From the NCBI GenBank assembly GCA_002084525.1, contig NBLH01000004.1, forward strand, positions 1 through 34,221: a stretch of DNA of 34,221 bases. The letters run 5' to 3'. The stretch's first letter is position 1. The number at the start of each line of letters is the position of its first letter. A program made the translations under genes and the position numbers. The DNA is from Bacteroidetes bacterium 4572_117 (GTDB lineage: Bacteria; Bacteroidota; Bacteroidia; Bacteroidales; NBLH01). Under the pieces are notes generated by a model. That model was not told where the DNA came from. It saw nothing but the letters and a program-made list of their open reading frames with translations, and ran no database searches. Positions 8,639 to 33,959 of the stretch are shown piece by piece.

Positions 8639-10156
8639 TTAAAACTGAAAGTAGATAAATGGCTGTAATTCAAACGTTTGGAATTGGTAAATGCCAAAAA
8701 CAACAATTATTACAATCAAAGCCATAATCCACAGGGGTAAACTTACAAATGCGTTTTTATACCAATTTTTAAACGATGAGGGAAGCCAGTGGACAATATA
8801 AGCAAATAATAAAAGGGCAAATACATTTTTGTAGGCAATAGTCATTTCAATTATTTTTGAACTGTCAAAAGCATAAACTATTTGGCTAATCATTGCATTT
8901 GCTTTGTCCATTGTTTCTGAACGGAACCAAATGCGGGTCATTGTAATAAAATTGAATGTGATAAATATGGCGTAAAACCTTACCGCCCAAGTATGATTAC
9001 CTTTAAAAGGGCTTATTTTTCGCCAATATTTATAAACAATTAACCCTATTCCGTTTAAACCGCCCCAAATTACAAATTGCCATGTATTGCCATGCCACAA
9101 ACCACCCAAAAGCATGGTTATCATCAGGTTTAAATTTGTCCTGAACTCACCGTGTTTATTACCGCCCAGTGGTATGTATAAATAATCTTTTAGCCAAGTT
9201 GAAAGCGAAATATGCCACCGTTTCCAAAACTCGCCCACATGCAATGCTTTGTACGGCGAATTAAAATTAACAGGTAACCGAAAACCCATAAGCAAAGCCA
9301 CACCGATAGCTATATCAGTATAGCCCGAAAAATCGGCATAAACCTGCATTGAATATGCATATAAACCCATTAGGTTTTCAAAACCGGAATAAGCTAACGG
9401 GTTGGAAAAAACCCGGTCAATAAAGTTTACGGCTATATAATCAGAGATAAACAGCTTTTTCAGCAACCCATTCAATATCAAAAATATAGCTGCGCCAAAT
9501 TCTTTTTTACTAAGTACATATTCCTTATATAACTGAGGTACGAATTCAGATGCACGTACAATTGGCCCTGCAACCAATTGGGGAAAAAATGATACATAAA
9601 AACCATAATCGAGAATGTTTGTTACAGGTTTAATTTTTTTTCGGTAAACATCGAGTATGTAACTGATAGTTTGGAAAGTAAAAAAAGAAATTCCTACAGG
9701 TAATATTATCTTGTCAATATCAAAACCGCCACCTGAAAACTGGTTTGCCCATAAATTAAAGTAATTAACAACTTTAAAATCACTTCCAAAAACATAGTTT
9801 ACCGAATTGATAAACATATAGGAATATTTAAAATACGAAAGCACAAATAAATTTAAAAACACACTCAATGCAACCAATAACTTCCTGTTTCGCTTGTTAT
9901 CAGACTTATAAATACCTTTTCCTATAAAAAAATCAGATATTGTTGAAAAAACCAGCAATAAAAAATAAATTCCACTTGTTTTATAATAAAAAAATAAACT
10001 AAGGAAAAAAAGATAGCCGTTTCGGGGTGTTTTTTTCTTATAAATAATTGAATAACCGGCCATTACCACTGCAAAAAATGCCCAAAAATAAAAACGGGTA
10101 AAAATCAATGGCGATTTTGGGTTAAATTTTAATATTTCAATTATTGTATCAAACAC
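8639..10156 (-). CDS. MBOAT-family membrane O-acyltransferase (AlgI/PatA-like)
   Basis: This is a 505-residue polytopic membrane protein that moves acyl groups, normally acetyl, across the membrane onto an extracytoplasmic sugar. The MBOAT signatures are present: FWKRWHISLSTWLKDYLYIPLGG with His315, and GGLWHGNTW with the near-invariant His355. About ten to twelve hydrophobic segments cover the chain. Length and motifs place it with AlgI (alginate), PatA (peptidoglycan) and DltB-type proteins. It is last in a minus-strand group whose two preceding genes encode SGNH proteins, the usual partners that complete the transfer outside the membrane. The acceptor is not shown by sequence. Confidence 0.92.
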   Translation of the reverse strand: MFDTIIEILKFNPKSPLIFTRFYFWAFFAVVMAGYSIIYKKKTPRNGYLFFLSLFFYYKTSGIYFLLLVFSTISDFFIGKGIYKSDNKRNRKLLVALSVFLNLFVLSYFKYSYMFINSVNYVFGSDFKVVNYFNLWANQFSGGGFDIDKIILPVGISFFTFQTISYILDVYRKKIKPVTNILDYGFYVSFFPQLVAGPIVRASEFVPQLYKEYVLSKKEFGAAIFLILNGLLKKLFISDYIAVNFIDRVFSNPLAYSGFENLMGLYAYSMQVYADFSGYTDIAIGVALLMGFRLPVNFNSPYKALHVGEFWKRWHISLSTWLKDYLYIPLGGNKHGEFRTNLNLMITMLLGGLWHGNTWQFVIWGGLNGIGLIVYKYWRKISPFKGNHTWAVRFYAIFITFNFITMTRIWFRSETMDKANAMISQIVYAFDSSKIIEMTIAYKNVFALLLFAYIVHWLPSSFKNWYKNAFVSLPLWIMALIVIIVVFGIYQFQTFELQPFIYFQF

Positions 10157-27055: not shown

Positions 27056-30000
27056 TTATTCGCCAGAATAATCCATTTCAGCTAAACGCTTGTAATAGTT
27101 ATAACGCCATTTAGAGTTTTCCTCGGCTGCTGCAAATAATAATTTGGCTTCTTCCGGGAAAGCTTTAACCAATGATGTATACCTTGTTTCGCTGTTCAAA
27201 AATTCTTGGAACATATTCCATTCCGGTTCTTTTGAATCTAAACTAAAAGGATTTTTACCTTGATCAGCTACCTCAGGATTAAATTTATACAAATGCCAAT
27301 AACCTGATTTTACGGCTAATTTTTCCTGTTCAATAGTAGTGCTCATACCTTTACGTAAACCATGCGCAATACAAGGTGAGTAAGCAATAATTAACGATGG
27401 TCCCGGATATGCTTCTGCTTCTTTAATTACTTTAAACGCATGGGCCATACTTGAACCCATCGCAATTTGTGCAACATAAACATAGCCATAGGTCATTGCC
27501 ATTGCCCCAAGGTCCTTTTTACGGATTTTTTTACCCGAAGCTGCAAATTTAGCAACTGCACCTGTAGGTGTAGCTTTTGAAGATTGCCCACCTGTATTTG
27601 AATAAACCTCGGTATCAACAACAAGCACATTAACATCCTCGCCTGAAGCAAGTACATGGTCTAAGCCACCATAACCAATATCATATGCCCAACCATCGCC
27701 ACCAAATATCCAGTGCGATTTTTTAGCCATATATTGTTTTAAACCTAAAACTTCTTTTGCAAATGGTAATTCGCATTTTTCAAGCATTGGGATAACAGCA
27801 TCAGTAGCAGCTTGCGAATTTGCACCATCATCTTTGGTGTCAATCCACTTTTGCATAGACTCTTTTAATTCAGCAGGAACATCAAGGTTTACCGCATCGG
27901 CAAATTTTCTTTCAACACGTGCCCTTAATTTATCAGAACCAATAGCCATACCAAAACCATATTCAGCATTGTCTTCGAATAATGAATTTGCCCAAGCTGG
28001 CCCTTTACCTTTTGGATTAGTTGTATAAGGTGTTGAAGGGGCAGAACCACCATAAATTGACGAGCAACCTGTTGCATTGGCAACGGTCATCCTGTCACCA
28101 AATAATTGAGTAATTAGTTTAATGTAAGGTGTTTCGCCGCATCCTGCACATGCACCTGAAAACTCAAATAATGGTTGGGCAAACTGGCTATTTTTAAATG
28201 TTTTCTCTTTAGGGACAATAGTATCTTTATAAGAAACATTTTTCGCAACATAATCCCAATTTTTAGCTTCGTGTATTTGCGATTCAAGAGATTTCATCAC
28301 CAAAGATTTTTCTTTTGAAGGACAAACCTCGACACAAACACCACATCCTGTACAATCTAACACACTTACCTGAATAAGGTATTCGTAACCTTTAAGGTCT
28401 TTACCGCTTGCAGGGATAGTTGTTATTTCAGTAGGTGCTTTTGATTTGTCGTTTTCGTCAAACAAGAAAGGACGGATTGCCGCATGTGGGCAAACATAAG
28501 CACATTGGTTGCATTGTATACAATTATCTGATAACCACTCAGGTACATCAGCTGCAACGCCTCTTTTTTCATAAGCAGCAGTTCCCTGTGGGAATGTTCC
28601 ATCTTCACGGTCAACAAATGTACTTACAGGTAAATCATCACCTTTTAGTGCATTAATTGGGTTAACAACATTTTTAATAAATTCAGGATATTCTGTTGTA
28701 TCGGCCTCATCCCCACCTTTTAAATTTGCCCATTCAGCAGGAACCTTAATTTCAGTAACATCGCCACCTCTATCAACTGCATCGTAATTCATTTTTACAA
28801 TCTTTTCACCTTTCATCGAGAATGTTTTTACAATTGCCGATTTCATTTCAGTAACTGCATCATCGTAAGGAATAACATTTGCGATTTTAAAGAATGCCGA
28901 TTGCATAATCGTATTTGTTCTTGAACCAAGCCCAATTTCAACGGCTATTTTTGTTGCGTTGATGATATATAATTTAATATCATTCTCTGCCAAATACTTT
29001 TTAATACTTTCTGGCAAATGTTTTTTGGTTTCTTCTTCGTCCCAAATACTATTTAAAAGAAAAGTGCCACCTTTTTTCAGCCCCTTCAACATATCATATT
29101 TTGTAAGATATGAAGAAACATGGCATGCAACAAAATCAGGTGTTGTAACAAGGTATGTCGATTTAATTTGTTTGTCGCCAAATCTTAAGTGTGATATTGT
29201 GATACCACCCGATTTTTTTGAATCGTATGAAAAATATGCCTGGACAAATTTATCAGTTGAACCACCAATAATTTTAATTGAGTTTTTATTGGCCCCAACA
29301 GTTCCATCAGATCCTAAACCATAAAACTTAGCCTCATATGTACCTTCTTCAGATAAACTAATTTCCGGCAACAATGGTAATGAAGTAAAAGTAACATCAT
29401 CAACAATACCTACGGTAAACCTGTTTTTAGGCTCTTTTTGTTTTAGGTTGTTAAAAACAGAAAGCATTTGTGCCGGTGTTGTGTCTTTTGAGCTTAATCC
29501 ATAACGCCCACCAACAATAATTGGGGCATTTTCTTTACCATAGAATAAATCCCTTACGTCTAAATATAATGGTTCCCCATTAGCGCCAGGTTCTTTAGTC
29601 CTATCCAATACAGCAATTCTTTTTACTGATTTTGGATAAACGTTCATGAAATACTTTTCAGAAAAAGGTCTGTATAAATGAACAGATATTAGCCCGATTT
29701 TGTCACCTTTTGCATTCTGAAAATCAACAACCTCTTTAATTGTTTCAGTAGCAGAACCCATTGCAATTACAATATTTTCAGCATCTGGGTCACCATAATA
29801 AGTAAACGGGGCATATTCACGACCTGTCAATTTTGTTATTTCTTGCATGTATCCGTCAACAATATCAGGAACCGCATCATAAAACTTGTTTGCAGCTTCC
29901 CTTGACTGAAAATATATGTCTGGGTTTTGTGCTGTACCCCTAGTTACAGGATGCTCAGGATTTAATGCACCATCACGGAATTTCTGTAAAGCGTCCCAAT

Positions 30001-30592
30001 CCAGCATCTTTTTTAAATCTTCCTGCTCTATTGCTTCTACCTTCTGAATTTCGTGCGAAGACCTGAACCCATCAAAAAAGTGGACAAACGGGATACGTGA
30101 TTTTATTGATGCCAAATGCGCAACCCCGGCTAAATCCATAATTTGTTGTATACTACCGGTTGCTAAAAAAGCAAAACCGGTCTGGCGGGCACTCATAACA
30201 TCAGAGTGGTCGCCAAAAATTGATAATGCTTGCGCCGCTAAGCTACGTGCACTAACATGAAAAACAGCCGGTAACAACTCACCAGCAATTTTATACATAT
30301 TTGGTATCATCAGTAACAAACCCTGTGAAGCAGTATAGGTTGAGGTTAATGCCCCAGCTTGAAGCGAGCCATGTACAGCCCCTGATGCTCCACCTTCAGA
30401 TTGCATTTCTTTTACATCTACCGTTTCGCCAAAAATATTTTTTCGCCCGTTGGCAGCCCACTCATCAACATTTTCAGCCATGTTTGATGATGGTGTAATA
30501 GGATAAATTGCCGCAACCTCACTAAACATATATGCTATATGCGAAGCAGCATAATTCCCGTCAATAGTAAGGTATTTTTTAGTTTTCACCAT
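27056..30592 (-). CDS. nifJ: Pyruvate:ferredoxin (flavodoxin) oxidoreductase
   Basis: This cytoplasmic homodimer oxidises pyruvate to acetyl-CoA and CO2, reducing ferredoxin or flavodoxin; it is the main pyruvate-oxidising enzyme of many anaerobes. All domains of the single-chain form are present in 1178 residues: the N-terminal pyruvate-binding domain with YPITPSS, the gamma-type domain, and a two-cluster ferredoxin domain with CIQCNQCAYVC (Cys691, 694, 697, 701) and CTGCGVCVEVC (747, 750, 753, 757). The TPP domain follows with CAGCGE (815, 818) for the third cluster and GGDGWAYDIGYGG. It is monocistronic with a strong terminator. It implies at least a facultatively anaerobic metabolism, using ferredoxin made elsewhere. 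Confidence 0.97.
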   Translation of the reverse strand: MVKTKKYLTIDGNYAASHIAYMFSEVAAIYPITPSSNMAENVDEWAANGRKNIFGETVDVKEMQSEGGASGAVHGSLQAGALTSTYTASQGLLLMIPNMYKIAGELLPAVFHVSARSLAAQALSIFGDHSDVMSARQTGFAFLATGSIQQIMDLAGVAHLASIKSRIPFVHFFDGFRSSHEIQKVEAIEQEDLKKMLDWDALQKFRDGALNPEHPVTRGTAQNPDIYFQSREAANKFYDAVPDIVDGYMQEITKLTGREYAPFTYYGDPDAENIVIAMGSATETIKEVVDFQNAKGDKIGLISVHLYRPFSEKYFMNVYPKSVKRIAVLDRTKEPGANGEPLYLDVRDLFYGKENAPIIVGGRYGLSSKDTTPAQMLSVFNNLKQKEPKNRFTVGIVDDVTFTSLPLLPEISLSEEGTYEAKFYGLGSDGTVGANKNSIKIIGGSTDKFVQAYFSYDSKKSGGITISHLRFGDKQIKSTYLVTTPDFVACHVSSYLTKYDMLKGLKKGGTFLLNSIWDEEETKKHLPESIKKYLAENDIKLYIINATKIAVEIGLGSRTNTIMQSAFFKIANVIPYDDAVTEMKSAIVKTFSMKGEKIVKMNYDAVDRGGDVTEIKVPAEWANLKGGDEADTTEYPEFIKNVVNPINALKGDDLPVSTFVDREDGTFPQGTAAYEKRGVAADVPEWLSDNCIQCNQCAYVCPHAAIRPFLFDENDKSKAPTEITTIPASGKDLKGYEYLIQVSVLDCTGCGVCVEVCPSKEKSLVMKSLESQIHEAKNWDYVAKNVSYKDTIVPKEKTFKNSQFAQPLFEFSGACAGCGETPYIKLITQLFGDRMTVANATGCSSIYGGSAPSTPYTTNPKGKGPAWANSLFEDNAEYGFGMAIGSDKLRARVERKFADAVNLDVPAELKESMQKWIDTKDDGANSQAATDAVIPMLEKCELPFAKEVLGLKQYMAKKSHWIFGGDGWAYDIGYGGLDHVLASGEDVNVLVVDTEVYSNTGGQSSKATPTGAVAKFAASGKKIRKKDLGAMAMTYGYVYVAQIAMGSSMAHAFKVIKEAEAYPGPSLIIAYSPCIAHGLRKGMSTTIEQEKLAVKSGYWHLYKFNPEVADQGKNPFSLDSKEPEWNMFQEFLNSETRYTSLVKAFPEEAKLLFAAAEENSKWRYNYYKRLAEMDYSGE

Positions 30593-30993: not shown

Positions 30994-31359
30994 ATGATTA
31001 GTTTCTTTAAAAAACCACTGCATTATATTTTAACAGGTTCTTTCTCTGTTGTTTTTGCAGCTTGTTACGGGGCACCTATGAATCTTGAAAACCCAAAACT
31101 AATTAAGGCAACCGATGGAAATAGTACACCGATAAAAGGTTTGAAAGTAAGCCTTTTCGAAAATCGATTGAATATTAATGAGGCATATACTGACCAAGAT
31201 GGTTCTGTTGAGTTTTATGTTCAACAAAAAGAAATGTATGATTATGAAGTTACCATTGAAGACGTTGACGGCGAAGAAAACGGTGGCGAGTTCATTAACA
31301 AAGATGTAAATGTAACTGAAACAAGCTTTGTTGAAGTTGTTTTAGAAAAGAAGAATTAA
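30994..31359 (+). CDS. Radical SAM-associated putative lipoprotein
   Basis: This 121-residue exported protein has an N-terminal charged and hydrophobic signal (KKPLHYILTGSFSVVFAAC) ending at lipidation residue Cys24. The CYGAP sequence at the cleavage site is characteristic of the lipoprotein half of the rSAM/lipoprotein system (the family I recall as TIGR04134). The mature part resembles a carboxypeptidase-regulatory-like beta fold, with the AYTDQDGSVEF turn and the conserved-looking DVDGEENGGEF segment at about 90-100. Cys24 is the only cysteine. A radical SAM gene lies 220 bp downstream on the same strand, and the pairing is what supports the family call. The lipoprotein is the natural candidate for modification by that enzyme, but this has not been shown and the function is unknown. 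Confidence 0.85.
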   Translation: MISFFKKPLHYILTGSFSVVFAACYGAPMNLENPKLIKATDGNSTPIKGLKVSLFENRLNINEAYTDQDGSVEFYVQQKEMYDYEVTIEDVDGEENGGEFINKDVNVTETSFVEVVLEKKN

Positions 31360-31410
31360 TTTTTGTGAATATTTGAATATCTTGTGGCTTACAAAGTTTT
31401 TAAAACTTGG

Positions 31411-31540
31411 TAAGTACTAAGTGCTATTTAATGTTGCATACGCACTAGTGCAAACATCTTTCAATATGCAAGTTGCGTAAAAGTAAATATACAACGGCGA
31501 AGCCCTCACCGGAGATAATTAATTTTGATTTGGTACTTAC
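31411..31540. repeat. Structured intergenic repeat, copy 2
   Basis: This is a direct relative of 20591-20695. It carries a roughly 24-bp GC-rich insert (about 31492-31516, including the GGCGAAGCCCTCACCGG stretch) that copy 1 lacks. Ends are inverted: GTAAGTAC (31410-31417) and GTACTTAC (31533-31540). It contains the perfect 10-bp palindrome GCACTAGTGC and TACGCA/TGCGTA arms. It separates the lipoprotein and radical SAM genes, and if transcribed it would form structure in their shared message. Confidence 0.8.
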
Positions 31541-31579
31541 GTCTTGTCTTTGTAGAAACCTAAAACTAAACTTCCGAAC

Positions 31580-32656
31580 TTGAAGCTAAAACCAAAAATA
31601 AAGCAAAGTCTACACTCGTTTTACAAATCGATTGAAATAAAAGAGCATAAATTATCTTACCTTTTTATTGAGATAACCCAAAAATGCAATTTAGATTGTT
31701 TGCATTGTGGCTCGGACTGCAAAGCAGAAGTGAACCACCCTGAACTTACTACCGACAGCTGGTTTAAAATTATTGATTATTTTGAACAAACATATTCTAA
31801 AAGTGTTGCTTTTGTACTTACGGGTGGCGAACCTTTAATGCATCCTGATATTTACAAAATTGGACGCTACATTAAAGAGAAAGGAATGCGCTGGGCTATG
31901 GTAACAAATGGCATTATCCTGAATGAGAGACGTTTAACAAAGCTAATTGATTCAGGAATTTACAGTATTACCCTAAGTTTAGATGGGTTAAAAGAAACAC
32001 ATAACTGGTTAAGGAATAATAAAAACGCTTTTGATAGGGCCAACATAGCCATGTCGCTTTTAGCAAATTCAAACATAGCTTTTAAAGATATTGTAACATG
32101 CGTTTCGCCCAAAAACTTACATGAATTACCAGATATAGCAAATTTATTAATTGAGAATAAAATTAAAGAATGGAGATTATTCAGGATTTTTCCTTCGGGT
32201 AGGGCAAAAAACAATAAAGAACTAAACCTCACTTTTGAGCAGACCCAAGAAATGTTGCAGTTTATTATAAAGAGTAAAAAAGCTTTTATGGCAAAAGGGT
32301 TAAACATTAACTTGAGTTGCGAAGGCTGGTTACCAATGCAAACTGATTTAAAAGTACGCGACCAGCCGTTTTTTTGTCGTGCCGGTGTTAGTATTGCTTC
32401 TATTTTATCAGATGGAACTATAACCGGATGTACAAATAACCATGAAGGTTTTCATGTAGGGAATATTTTAAAAGATAATTTTTCTGTTGTTTGGGAAAAC
32501 CGTTTTGATATTTTCCGGAAACGGGAATGGCTTGCCAAAACCGATTGCAAAAACTGCAAACATTTTAAACAATGTAATGGTAGTTCTATTCATCTATGGG
32601 AAATGGGTGATAAAAAGCCTAAGTTTTGCTATGAAGTAGATTTAACAGTTAGTTAG
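31580..32656 (+). CDS. Radical SAM/SPASM-type enzyme of the rSAM/lipoprotein system
   Basis: This is a 358-residue cytoplasmic iron-sulfur enzyme. The CX3CX2C motif (Cys36, Cys40, Cys43, with Cys47 nearby in CLHCGSDC) binds the 4Fe-4S cluster that cleaves S-adenosylmethionine. TGGEP (81-85) is the SAM-binding GGE motif. The C-terminal region has SPASM-like cysteines at 266, 284, 323, 326, 332 and 350, including CX2CX5C and the CNGSSIHLW segment, so it should hold auxiliary clusters. SPASM enzymes commonly modify peptides or proteins. No ATG fits: the frame opens after a TAG at 31553-31555, so I accept the TTG at 31580. It pairs with the upstream lipoprotein, matching the family I recall as TIGR04133. 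Its stop is one base from the convergent caspase gene. Confidence 0.9.
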   Translation: MKLKPKIKQSLHSFYKSIEIKEHKLSYLFIEITQKCNLDCLHCGSDCKAEVNHPELTTDSWFKIIDYFEQTYSKSVAFVLTGGEPLMHPDIYKIGRYIKEKGMRWAMVTNGIILNERRLTKLIDSGIYSITLSLDGLKETHNWLRNNKNAFDRANIAMSLLANSNIAFKDIVTCVSPKNLHELPDIANLLIENKIKEWRLFRIFPSGRAKNNKELNLTFEQTQEMLQFIIKSKKAFMAKGLNINLSCEGWLPMQTDLKVRDQPFFCRAGVSIASILSDGTITGCTNNHEGFHVGNILKDNFSVVWENRFDIFRKREWLAKTDCKNCKHFKQCNGSSIHLWEMGDKKPKFCYEVDLTVS

Positions 32657-32657
32657 T

Positions 32658-33959
32658 TCATTTTGTGCTACCCTTGATACAACGGACAGAAAAACCTAAG
32701 CTTTTGGCATTAGAATAAATACCAACTGATTCACCGGAACGGCTGACATCTAAATTCCATGCAAAATAATTATTTTCAGACGAAGTCCAAAAACAAGATT
32801 TGCTTGTAATACCATCGAAATCACCATTTAGAATATATCTAAAGCCTCCAAATACATTTAAAAAGGCAGAACATTCCCCTGACATTAATTTTACATACGA
32901 TGCATTACCTTTACCACCATAATTGTTTAACAATGTTTCAAAATCTTTTTTTGTGGGCAGCCTCCAGCCATTAGGACAAACGGTTTTGGCAGTTTCCCAA
33001 TTGTAAAGGTAACCAAATTTTGCCACATTAGTTGGGCGGTTATCATAACTCCAACTACCATTTGTTGTTTTATATGCTAAATTTTCCGCCATCCATAACT
33101 GGTTAGCTAGTTCTACTGTTTTATAACGTTTATTGTCCCTATTATCGGTTAAGTAGTTTTGGGTCCCCCTTGGTTCATTGGGTTTAATTGAGTCATTAGT
33201 TGTGTTATCCTGATTAAAATAAATTACTTTAGATAAAGAGCTATTAAACCAAGGTTGTTGTTTTTTTCCGGTTTTTGCGTACACATCATTTCTTACATTG
33301 GTCAGCACTTCGTAAATAGATAGGTTGGGCTTTTTTAGCTGTTTTACCCATGCGGTTGTATACGGGCTATTATTACCTGAACCATCAAAAGCTACATTGT
33401 TGGGCTCGGTGGCAAAGGCAATCAGGCTACCTGTGGGGTTGCTTTTAACTATGGTAAAACCTTTGTTGCTACTGCCTTTTGTCCATGAGCGAAAGGGGTT
33501 GTCGCGGCAGGCATCTAAAATAAACACATTTGAACCACCGCTATAGCTTTCAACTTTTTGAAAAACATAGCTAAGTTGCACGCCTTTATCGTCAGCATCA
33601 ATTTTATCGTTAACATTTACGGCATCAACCGGGACCAAGTAATTTTTTCCATCAATTTGGTAACCATGCCCTGAATAATAAAACACAAAAATATCACAAT
33701 CGCTAAGTTTATCAACAATGTTGTTTACCGCACGTTTAATTTCTGTTTTAGTTGCATCGGATATCATTGTAACCTCAAAACCTAAATTTTGCAAACTTGT
33801 TTTAATCAGCTTGGCATCGTTTACCGGGTTTTTTAAAACTGCGTTCTTGTCATGATAATTACTATTGCCAATTATAAGGGCTATTTTTTTTTGTTTATTT
33901 TGTGCAAGTACAATTGTTGCAAAAGCAAATAATAAAAAAACAAAGGTTATTCTTCTCAT
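32658..33959 (-). CDS. Secreted caspase-like (C14) protein with C-terminal FISUMP domain
   Basis: This 433-residue exported protein has a signal peptide (1-19, cut after VLA). A caspase/metacaspase-type peptidase domain follows at about 25-250. The catalytic dyad is intact: His98 in FYYSGHG and Cys151 in ILDACRDNP. KIALIIGNSNY and the NPVNDAKLI stretch at the start are typical of bacterial caspase-like proteins. A linker of about 20 residues leads to a FISUMP domain (about 270-430), recognisable by NQLWMAENLAYKT, GYLYNWETAKTVCPNGWRLPTKKDF, and the closing SVRCIK. FISUMP occurs in many secreted Bacteroidota proteins; its function is unclear. It would act in the periplasm or outside the cell. 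Its substrate is unknown. Confidence 0.9.
   Translation of the reverse strand: MRRITFVFLLFAFATIVLAQNKQKKIALIIGNSNYHDKNAVLKNPVNDAKLIKTSLQNLGFEVTMISDATKTEIKRAVNNIVDKLSDCDIFVFYYSGHGYQIDGKNYLVPVDAVNVNDKIDADDKGVQLSYVFQKVESYSGGSNVFILDACRDNPFRSWTKGSSNKGFTIVKSNPTGSLIAFATEPNNVAFDGSGNNSPYTTAWVKQLKKPNLSIYEVLTNVRNDVYAKTGKKQQPWFNSSLSKVIYFNQDNTTNDSIKPNEPRGTQNYLTDNRDNKRYKTVELANQLWMAENLAYKTTNGSWSYDNRPTNVAKFGYLYNWETAKTVCPNGWRLPTKKDFETLLNNYGGKGNASYVKLMSGECSAFLNVFGGFRYILNGDFDGITSKSCFWTSSENNYFAWNLDVSRSGESVGIYSNAKSLGFSVRCIKGSTK

Follow-up and report, generated by a model that had tools for sequence, protein, structure and literature searches.

Exported lipoproteins beside TIGR04133-type radical SAM enzymes share an X-Tyr-Gly motif, a possible site of splicease-like editing

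PlpX-type spliceases target X-Tyr-Gly, excise tyramine and join the carbonyls to an alpha-ketoamide (PMC10533398, PMC11002830, PMC10373908). Natural PlpX sites are MYG and LYG, and the PlpXY tags include PIRPLYGLPI (PMC10533398, PMC11002830), which matches the pattern YGxP. Several rounds are possible within one precursor (PMC10373908), and spliced peptides have been reported as protease inhibitors (PMC10373908, PMC11117315). The PlpX/PlpXY system (TIGR04103; IPR026482 according to PMC11002830) uses an RRE partner, PlpY, and its substrates are Nif11/NHLP peptides. The TIGR04103 (PlpX-class) cluster of Nostoc sp. C057, annotated as nif11-class maturase 3, contains a Nif11 precursor that ends with ALYGLPPELF, and a 35-residue ORF upstream of a related Agathobacter enzyme, unannotated in the record, ends with VMYGTGVRM. 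A related enzyme is also found in the GDL-motif/DUF1843 system (TIGR03913), whose small partners often have an N-terminal YG (LYGVGI, PYGVAV). This system differs from the one described here, since the partners are cytosolic peptides of about 55-70 amino acids, the enzyme is larger with a C-terminal extension, and no lipoprotein is involved. For the pair TIGR04133/TIGR04134, a SPASM enzyme and a lipoprotein, a literature search found no paper naming either family.

The window, that is the complete stretch of 34,221 nucleotides analysed here, contains a pair of this kind. The sequence-only reading had described a lipoprotein and a SPASM-type radical SAM enzyme encoded in tandem, and both ORFs lie where it had placed them (Table 1). 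Alignment confirmed the CX3CX2C motif (Cys36/40/43), the GGE motif and the six C-terminal cysteines that it had listed for the enzyme, and these Cys residues and the GGE are invariant among 26 homologues. The lipoprotein has, as described, a 23-residue signal followed by Cys24 and then YGAP, and Cys24 is the only cysteine of this protein.

Table 1. Features of the gene pair in the window.
Feature	Position	Strand	Basis
Lipoprotein gene, 121 aa, ATG start, TIGR04134-like, probable substrate	30994..31359	+	ORF, TIGR04134 profile match, AlphaFold model
Signal peptide (residues 1-23), which the enzyme probably uses as leader	30994..31062	+	Conservation of positions -20 to -1
Cys24-Tyr25-Gly26-Ala27-Pro28, lipidated Cys (= X) and YGxP core, predicted modification site	31063..31077	+	Motif counts beside homologous enzymes
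Transthyretin/CnaB-like beta-sandwich domain (carrier)	31087..31347	+	AlphaFold model, Foldseek
DVDGEENGGEF loop within the carrier domain, regarded as a structural element and not as the modified site	31261..31293	+	Alignment; absent from other YGxP scaffolds
Radical SAM/SPASM enzyme, 358 aa, TTG start, TIGR04133 clade, proposed XYG-editing enzyme	31580..32656	+	ORF, profile, tree, AlphaFold model
Single helix at the N-terminus of the enzyme, residues 5-22, with no winged-helix RRE	31592..31645	+	Secondary structure in the AlphaFold model
CNLDCLHCGS, radical SAM cluster motif with C-x-H-C-G-S signature	31685..31714	+	Gly44 comparison
GGE motif of the enzyme, residues 82-84	31823..31831	+	Invariant in alignment
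SPASM domain, six Cys (266, 284, 323, 326, 332, 350)	32375..32629	+	PF13186 31.2 bits; Cys invariant

The suggestion that both proteins belong to the rSAM/lipoprotein families was followed by profile searches. The best NCBIfam match of the enzyme is TIGR04133 (E 5.9e-113, 377.3 bits, under the curated cut-off of 425), which leads the next-best model by 230 bits; the sole family match of the lipoprotein is TIGR04134 (E 1.7e-7, 31.4 bits, under the curated cut-off of 39.8). The lipoprotein shares with TIGR04134 a lipobox signal and a beta-sandwich beside a radical SAM gene, and the enzyme gene adjoins a TIGR04134-type lipoprotein gene in the window and in its relatives. In a phylogenetic tree the TIGR04133 family branch has a support of 100/100, with the window clade of seven nested within it. 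Judged by these comparisons, the two proteins are divergent members of the named pair that score below its curated thresholds. They agree with it in having neighbouring genes in the same order for a SPASM enzyme and a lipoprotein, with the enzyme inside the TIGR04133 clade; apart from the lower scores, they differ in that the lipobox Cys directly precedes YG (CYG subtype), the mature protein is short (98 residues) and the genes are parted by a repeat.

Together with ten further loci the window enzyme forms a divergent clade (53-83% identity). Tandem conservation was to be expected from the sequence-only reading and was found here: the lipoprotein-rSAM pair is the only unit kept through all 11 loci, any other neighbour being present in at most five of them. 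The closest relatives also keep the two genes together as a unit, so the pair is far from a chance arrangement. The gap between the two genes is 220 bp in the window versus 0-40 bp in most relatives, since about 129 bp of a dispersed MITE-like repeat (31411-31539) lie there; the repeat has 41 matching places in its own genome, the closest other copy being 93% identical. A pyruvate:ferredoxin oxidoreductase gene, divergent from the pair (27056-30592, minus strand; TIGR02176, 1934 bits), is common to five clade loci; among the ten related loci, four have it in synteny. On the other side lies a convergent gene for a caspase-like protein (32658-33959, minus strand; Peptidase_C14, E 5.7e-47) fused to a Fib_succ_major domain, with its stop codon 2 bp from that of the rSAM gene. 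This gene was found in none of the other clade loci, and a function of the pair via the caspase-like neighbour was ruled out because it is not kept beside the pair in relatives. Further away the window encodes a DltB-like MBOAT protein (8639-10156, minus strand; TIGR04091, 168.8 bits, below the cut-off of 375).

Altogether, a TIGR04133 match with an E-value of 1e-70 or lower was found in 68 of 295 genomes of the same order. Beyond Bacteroidota the family was found in our genome collection in Spirochaetales, Fibrobacter, Myxococcota and Anaeromyxobacter oryzae, and one further annotated pair is located on a Treponema plasmid.

Reading the neighbours of 73 different enzymes revealed a shared X-Y-G-x-P, located just behind the lipobox or elsewhere in the exported protein, which the TIGR04133/TIGR04134 family models do not name. 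At Bacteroidales loci with enough upstream room, YGxP is present in an upstream ORF of exported type in 63 of 67 cases. It occurs in 74 of 202 ORFs near the enzyme versus 17 of 1300 elsewhere in the same loci (a background of about 1% of ORFs), and for lipobox-like ORFs the counts are 69 of 102 versus 1 of 275 (Fisher p ~1e-53 and ~1e-48, respectively; with many related partners, the ORFs are less independent than these values imply). A second set of loci from named genomes (Bacteroidota, Spirochaetota, Fibrobacterota, Myxococcota), which may overlap the first by a few genomes, showed YGxP beside the enzyme at 65 of 79 loci. Twelve loci of this set have no YGxP on either side, and seven of these keep a lipobox C-Y-G without the Pro in the adjacent lipoprotein; YG is therefore the core of the motif. 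The nearest non-members of the family (L099 and L100; 246 and 241 bits), which served as a negative control, have no YGxP nearby, and in a small sample of TIGR04134-like proteins from genomes without a detected enzyme (L150, L151) the motif is absent. At one locus (L149, genome G022) a lipoprotein with QACYGTPQD is followed by an apparently interrupted TIGR04133 gene near the contig end.

The tyrosine is strictly kept. Among 174 distinct lipoprotein-like ORFs near the enzyme 136 contain YGxP and two WGxP, with no instance of FGxP or HGxP; CYG at the lipobox is found in 70. Of 86 motif copies, 29 have Cys before YG; in the others this residue is mostly E, M, V, K or L. For the region beside the lipobox, the sequence-only reading had preferred an altered Tyr25, Gly or Pro to a Cys thioether, and a variable X with a Tyr that is never Phe or His agrees with this. 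The enzyme thus very probably acts on Tyr25 of X-Tyr-Gly, beside the lipid anchor.

The proteins that carry the motif beside a TIGR04133-type enzyme are diverse. They include transthyretin-like domains (TIGR04134), coiled-coil lipoproteins with one to three copies (L024, L027, L029, L032, L102, L103), short proline-rich tails (L098 with three copies, L105, L108, L025), Fibrobacter proteins with several copies each, and SPI-type exported proteins that start with Q-Y-G-x-P (IAQ|YGxP; L145, L146, L148). Scans of two coiled-coil proteins (L027, L102) and two short-tail proteins (L098, L105) found neither TIGR04134 nor a strong Pfam match. In L108 (about 4.3-7.6 kb) five different small exported YGxP proteins precede a single enzyme; four of them resemble one another in the lipoprotein signal, whereas their mature parts are partly unrelated. 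In L148, the last part of the stretch looks by eye like a type IX secretion sorting domain. Since the motif moves among unrelated scaffolds beside one enzyme family, it is best read as the target of that enzyme, and the beta-sandwich is best explained as an exchangeable carrier.

This diversity bears on two other readings. The modification could lie in the DVDGEENGGEF loop, an earlier candidate whose residues D90, D92 and G98 are invariant within the transthyretin-like scaffold, or it could be a Cys-based thioether, a frequent product of SPASM enzymes. The loop turned out to be a feature of the transthyretin-like domain that coiled-coil and short-tail partners beside the same enzyme do not have, and the candidate was dropped; a thioether at the lipobox was likewise ruled out because X varies, the only Cys of the window protein being the lipidation site. 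Taken together, we consider both highly improbable. Alternatively, YGxP might be a docking or sorting signal, the enzyme modifying another protein or a small molecule with the lipoprotein as its partner. The motif is located at the membrane anchor, the usual place of sorting signals, and the best non-family NCBIfam models for the enzyme are those for the heme-biosynthesis proteins AhbD and NirJ. Unlike a sorting signal, YGxP recurs two to three times within a protein and also occurs in C-terminal tails. It is carried by several unrelated exported proteins per locus, and no unit other than the pair is kept by all members of the clade, which makes this explanation quite unlikely compared with the motif as the site of modification.

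An AlphaFold model of the lipoprotein (pLDDT 82) has one N-terminal helix and a beta-sandwich, with the SusC N-terminal extension 9hfj and the transthyretin-like 2gpz as best Foldseek matches. The sandwich starts about seven residues after Cys24, which would leave the predicted site in close contact with the membrane anchor. Within each of two subclades the signal positions -20 to -1 are about 47-48% identical versus 34-36% for the mature domain. Signals are usually less conserved than mature domains; the opposite pattern seen here suggests that the signal is read as a leader. The sequence comparison supports the earlier proposal of a radical modification installed before export. Overall, the earlier reading is supported in part; it had overlooked that the motif recurs on unrelated scaffolds, as well as the conserved signal and the link to XYG spliceases.

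The AlphaFold model of the enzyme (pLDDT 92.5, pTM 0.89) consists of one N-terminal helix, the barrel and the SPASM domain, without an RRE-like N-terminal domain. Closest solved folds are SkfB, BlsE, SuiB, the sulfatase maturase anSME and PqqE; sulfatase maturase, SkfB, SuiB and PqqE are alike in overall fold and differ in having other substrates and motifs, with 17-21% identity to the window enzyme. A closer kinship with PlpX-type enzymes may be indicated by Gly44 of the CxHCGS signature, which is present in 20 of 20 TIGR04133, 7 of 7 PlpX/GDL-group and 4 of 4 further TIGR04103-like enzymes, and in none of 15 other SPASM enzymes (NirJ, MftC, PqqE, BlsE, TIGR04053 and others). In a tree without the long rows (PqqE, BlsE and others, with which the deep branches are unresolved) TIGR04133 and PlpX/GDL-type enzymes are on one side of a 99/97 branch versus NirJ, MftC and TIGR04053. 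TIGR04103-like enzymes are also present in Bacteroidota (L110-L114), the signature being seen in L110-L113, and two of them (L110, L111) come after a conserved protein of about 170 amino acids. No convincing XYG peptide was found beside L110-L113, so CxHCGS would mark kinship rather than reaction.

The pairing, the motif, its independence of the scaffold, the conserved signal and the signature common with PlpX-type enzymes can all be read from the sequences themselves. Like PlpX, the window enzyme is a SPASM radical SAM protein that has a partner with XYG, here the CYGAP of residues 24-28, in a motif that recurs with the family and resembles the LYGLP core, with multiple sites per precursor possible. 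It differs from PlpX in its partner, an exported lipoprotein instead of a Nif11/NHLP peptide, in the number of SPASM cysteines, the seventh of PlpX-type enzymes (CX3C) being missing, and in that neither an RRE partner nor a conserved third gene was found through the 11-locus clade. TIGR04103 is only its 12th best NCBIfam model (98.9 bits, cut-off 725). Because of the absent RRE partner and the low TIGR04103 score we do not class the pair as a member of PlpXY; by analogy it is filed as working like a splicease.

By the same analogy, tyramine excision is the reaction we would name for the XYG site, with the chances evenly balanced. The same XYG(x)P tyrosine could instead undergo other chemistry, such as a Tyr-centred cross-link, beta-carbon oxidation, decarboxylation-like cleavage or epimerisation of the Gly, since the motif association fixes the site and not the reaction. 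SPASM enzymes are chemically diverse, as the closest solved folds illustrate, and the Cys count and the RRE partner are unlike PlpXY. Cyclophane-type enzymes would be expected to accept Phe or Trp and to require a fixed partner residue, whereas a strict Tyr followed by Gly, with X and the third position unconstrained, is the splicease XYG rule, and a PlpX-family precursor has the same YGLP core. We therefore regard such other chemistry as a serious but less probable alternative to tyramine excision.

The following sequence of events can be proposed. After translation the cytoplasmic enzyme would bind the precursor via its signal peptide, which would take the role of a RiPP leader, and would recognise X-Tyr-Gly just behind the signal. 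Radical editing of Tyr25, most likely with net loss of tyramine, would be followed by Sec export of the edited preprotein and processing by Lgt and LspA. The outcome would be an envelope protein with an electrophilic alpha-ketoamide at or near the lipid-bearing residue; in the window clade X is the lipidated Cys24 itself, and the product would still have to pass Lgt and LspA. In our view it is about an even call that the two genes form a protein-editing system in which the signal acts as leader and XYG is edited before export, most likely by tyramine excision. The more specific proposal, a splicease-like enzyme that edits exported lipoproteins with the Sec signal peptide as leader, is tentative and falls somewhat short of that. 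The likeliest role would be a tethered, reversible covalent trap for serine/cysteine proteases or other envelope nucleophiles. Given the reports of protease inhibition by spliced peptides, a protease trap of this kind is our first functional guess, although protease inhibition as the cellular role, taken over by analogy, is rather unlikely; alternatively, editing might protect or alter the lipoprotein N-terminus.

Scott et al. 2022 (Chem 8:2659) reportedly surveyed 939 predicted spliceases, and the novelty of the splicease reading would be smaller if that survey includes TIGR04133 enzymes. The family name does not cover the reading proposed here, in which the XYG of exported lipoproteins is edited, the signal acts as leader and, in the window clade, X is the lipidated Cys. 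If it is true, a pair with a merely descriptive name, widespread in about a quarter of the sampled genomes of this order and in Spirochaetota, Fibrobacterota and Myxococcota, would gain a site and a likely reaction. Backbone splicing would then be extended from secreted peptides to folded envelope proteins, a signal peptide would serve as modification leader, and gut and environmental bacteria would carry a reactive ketone at a surface anchor.
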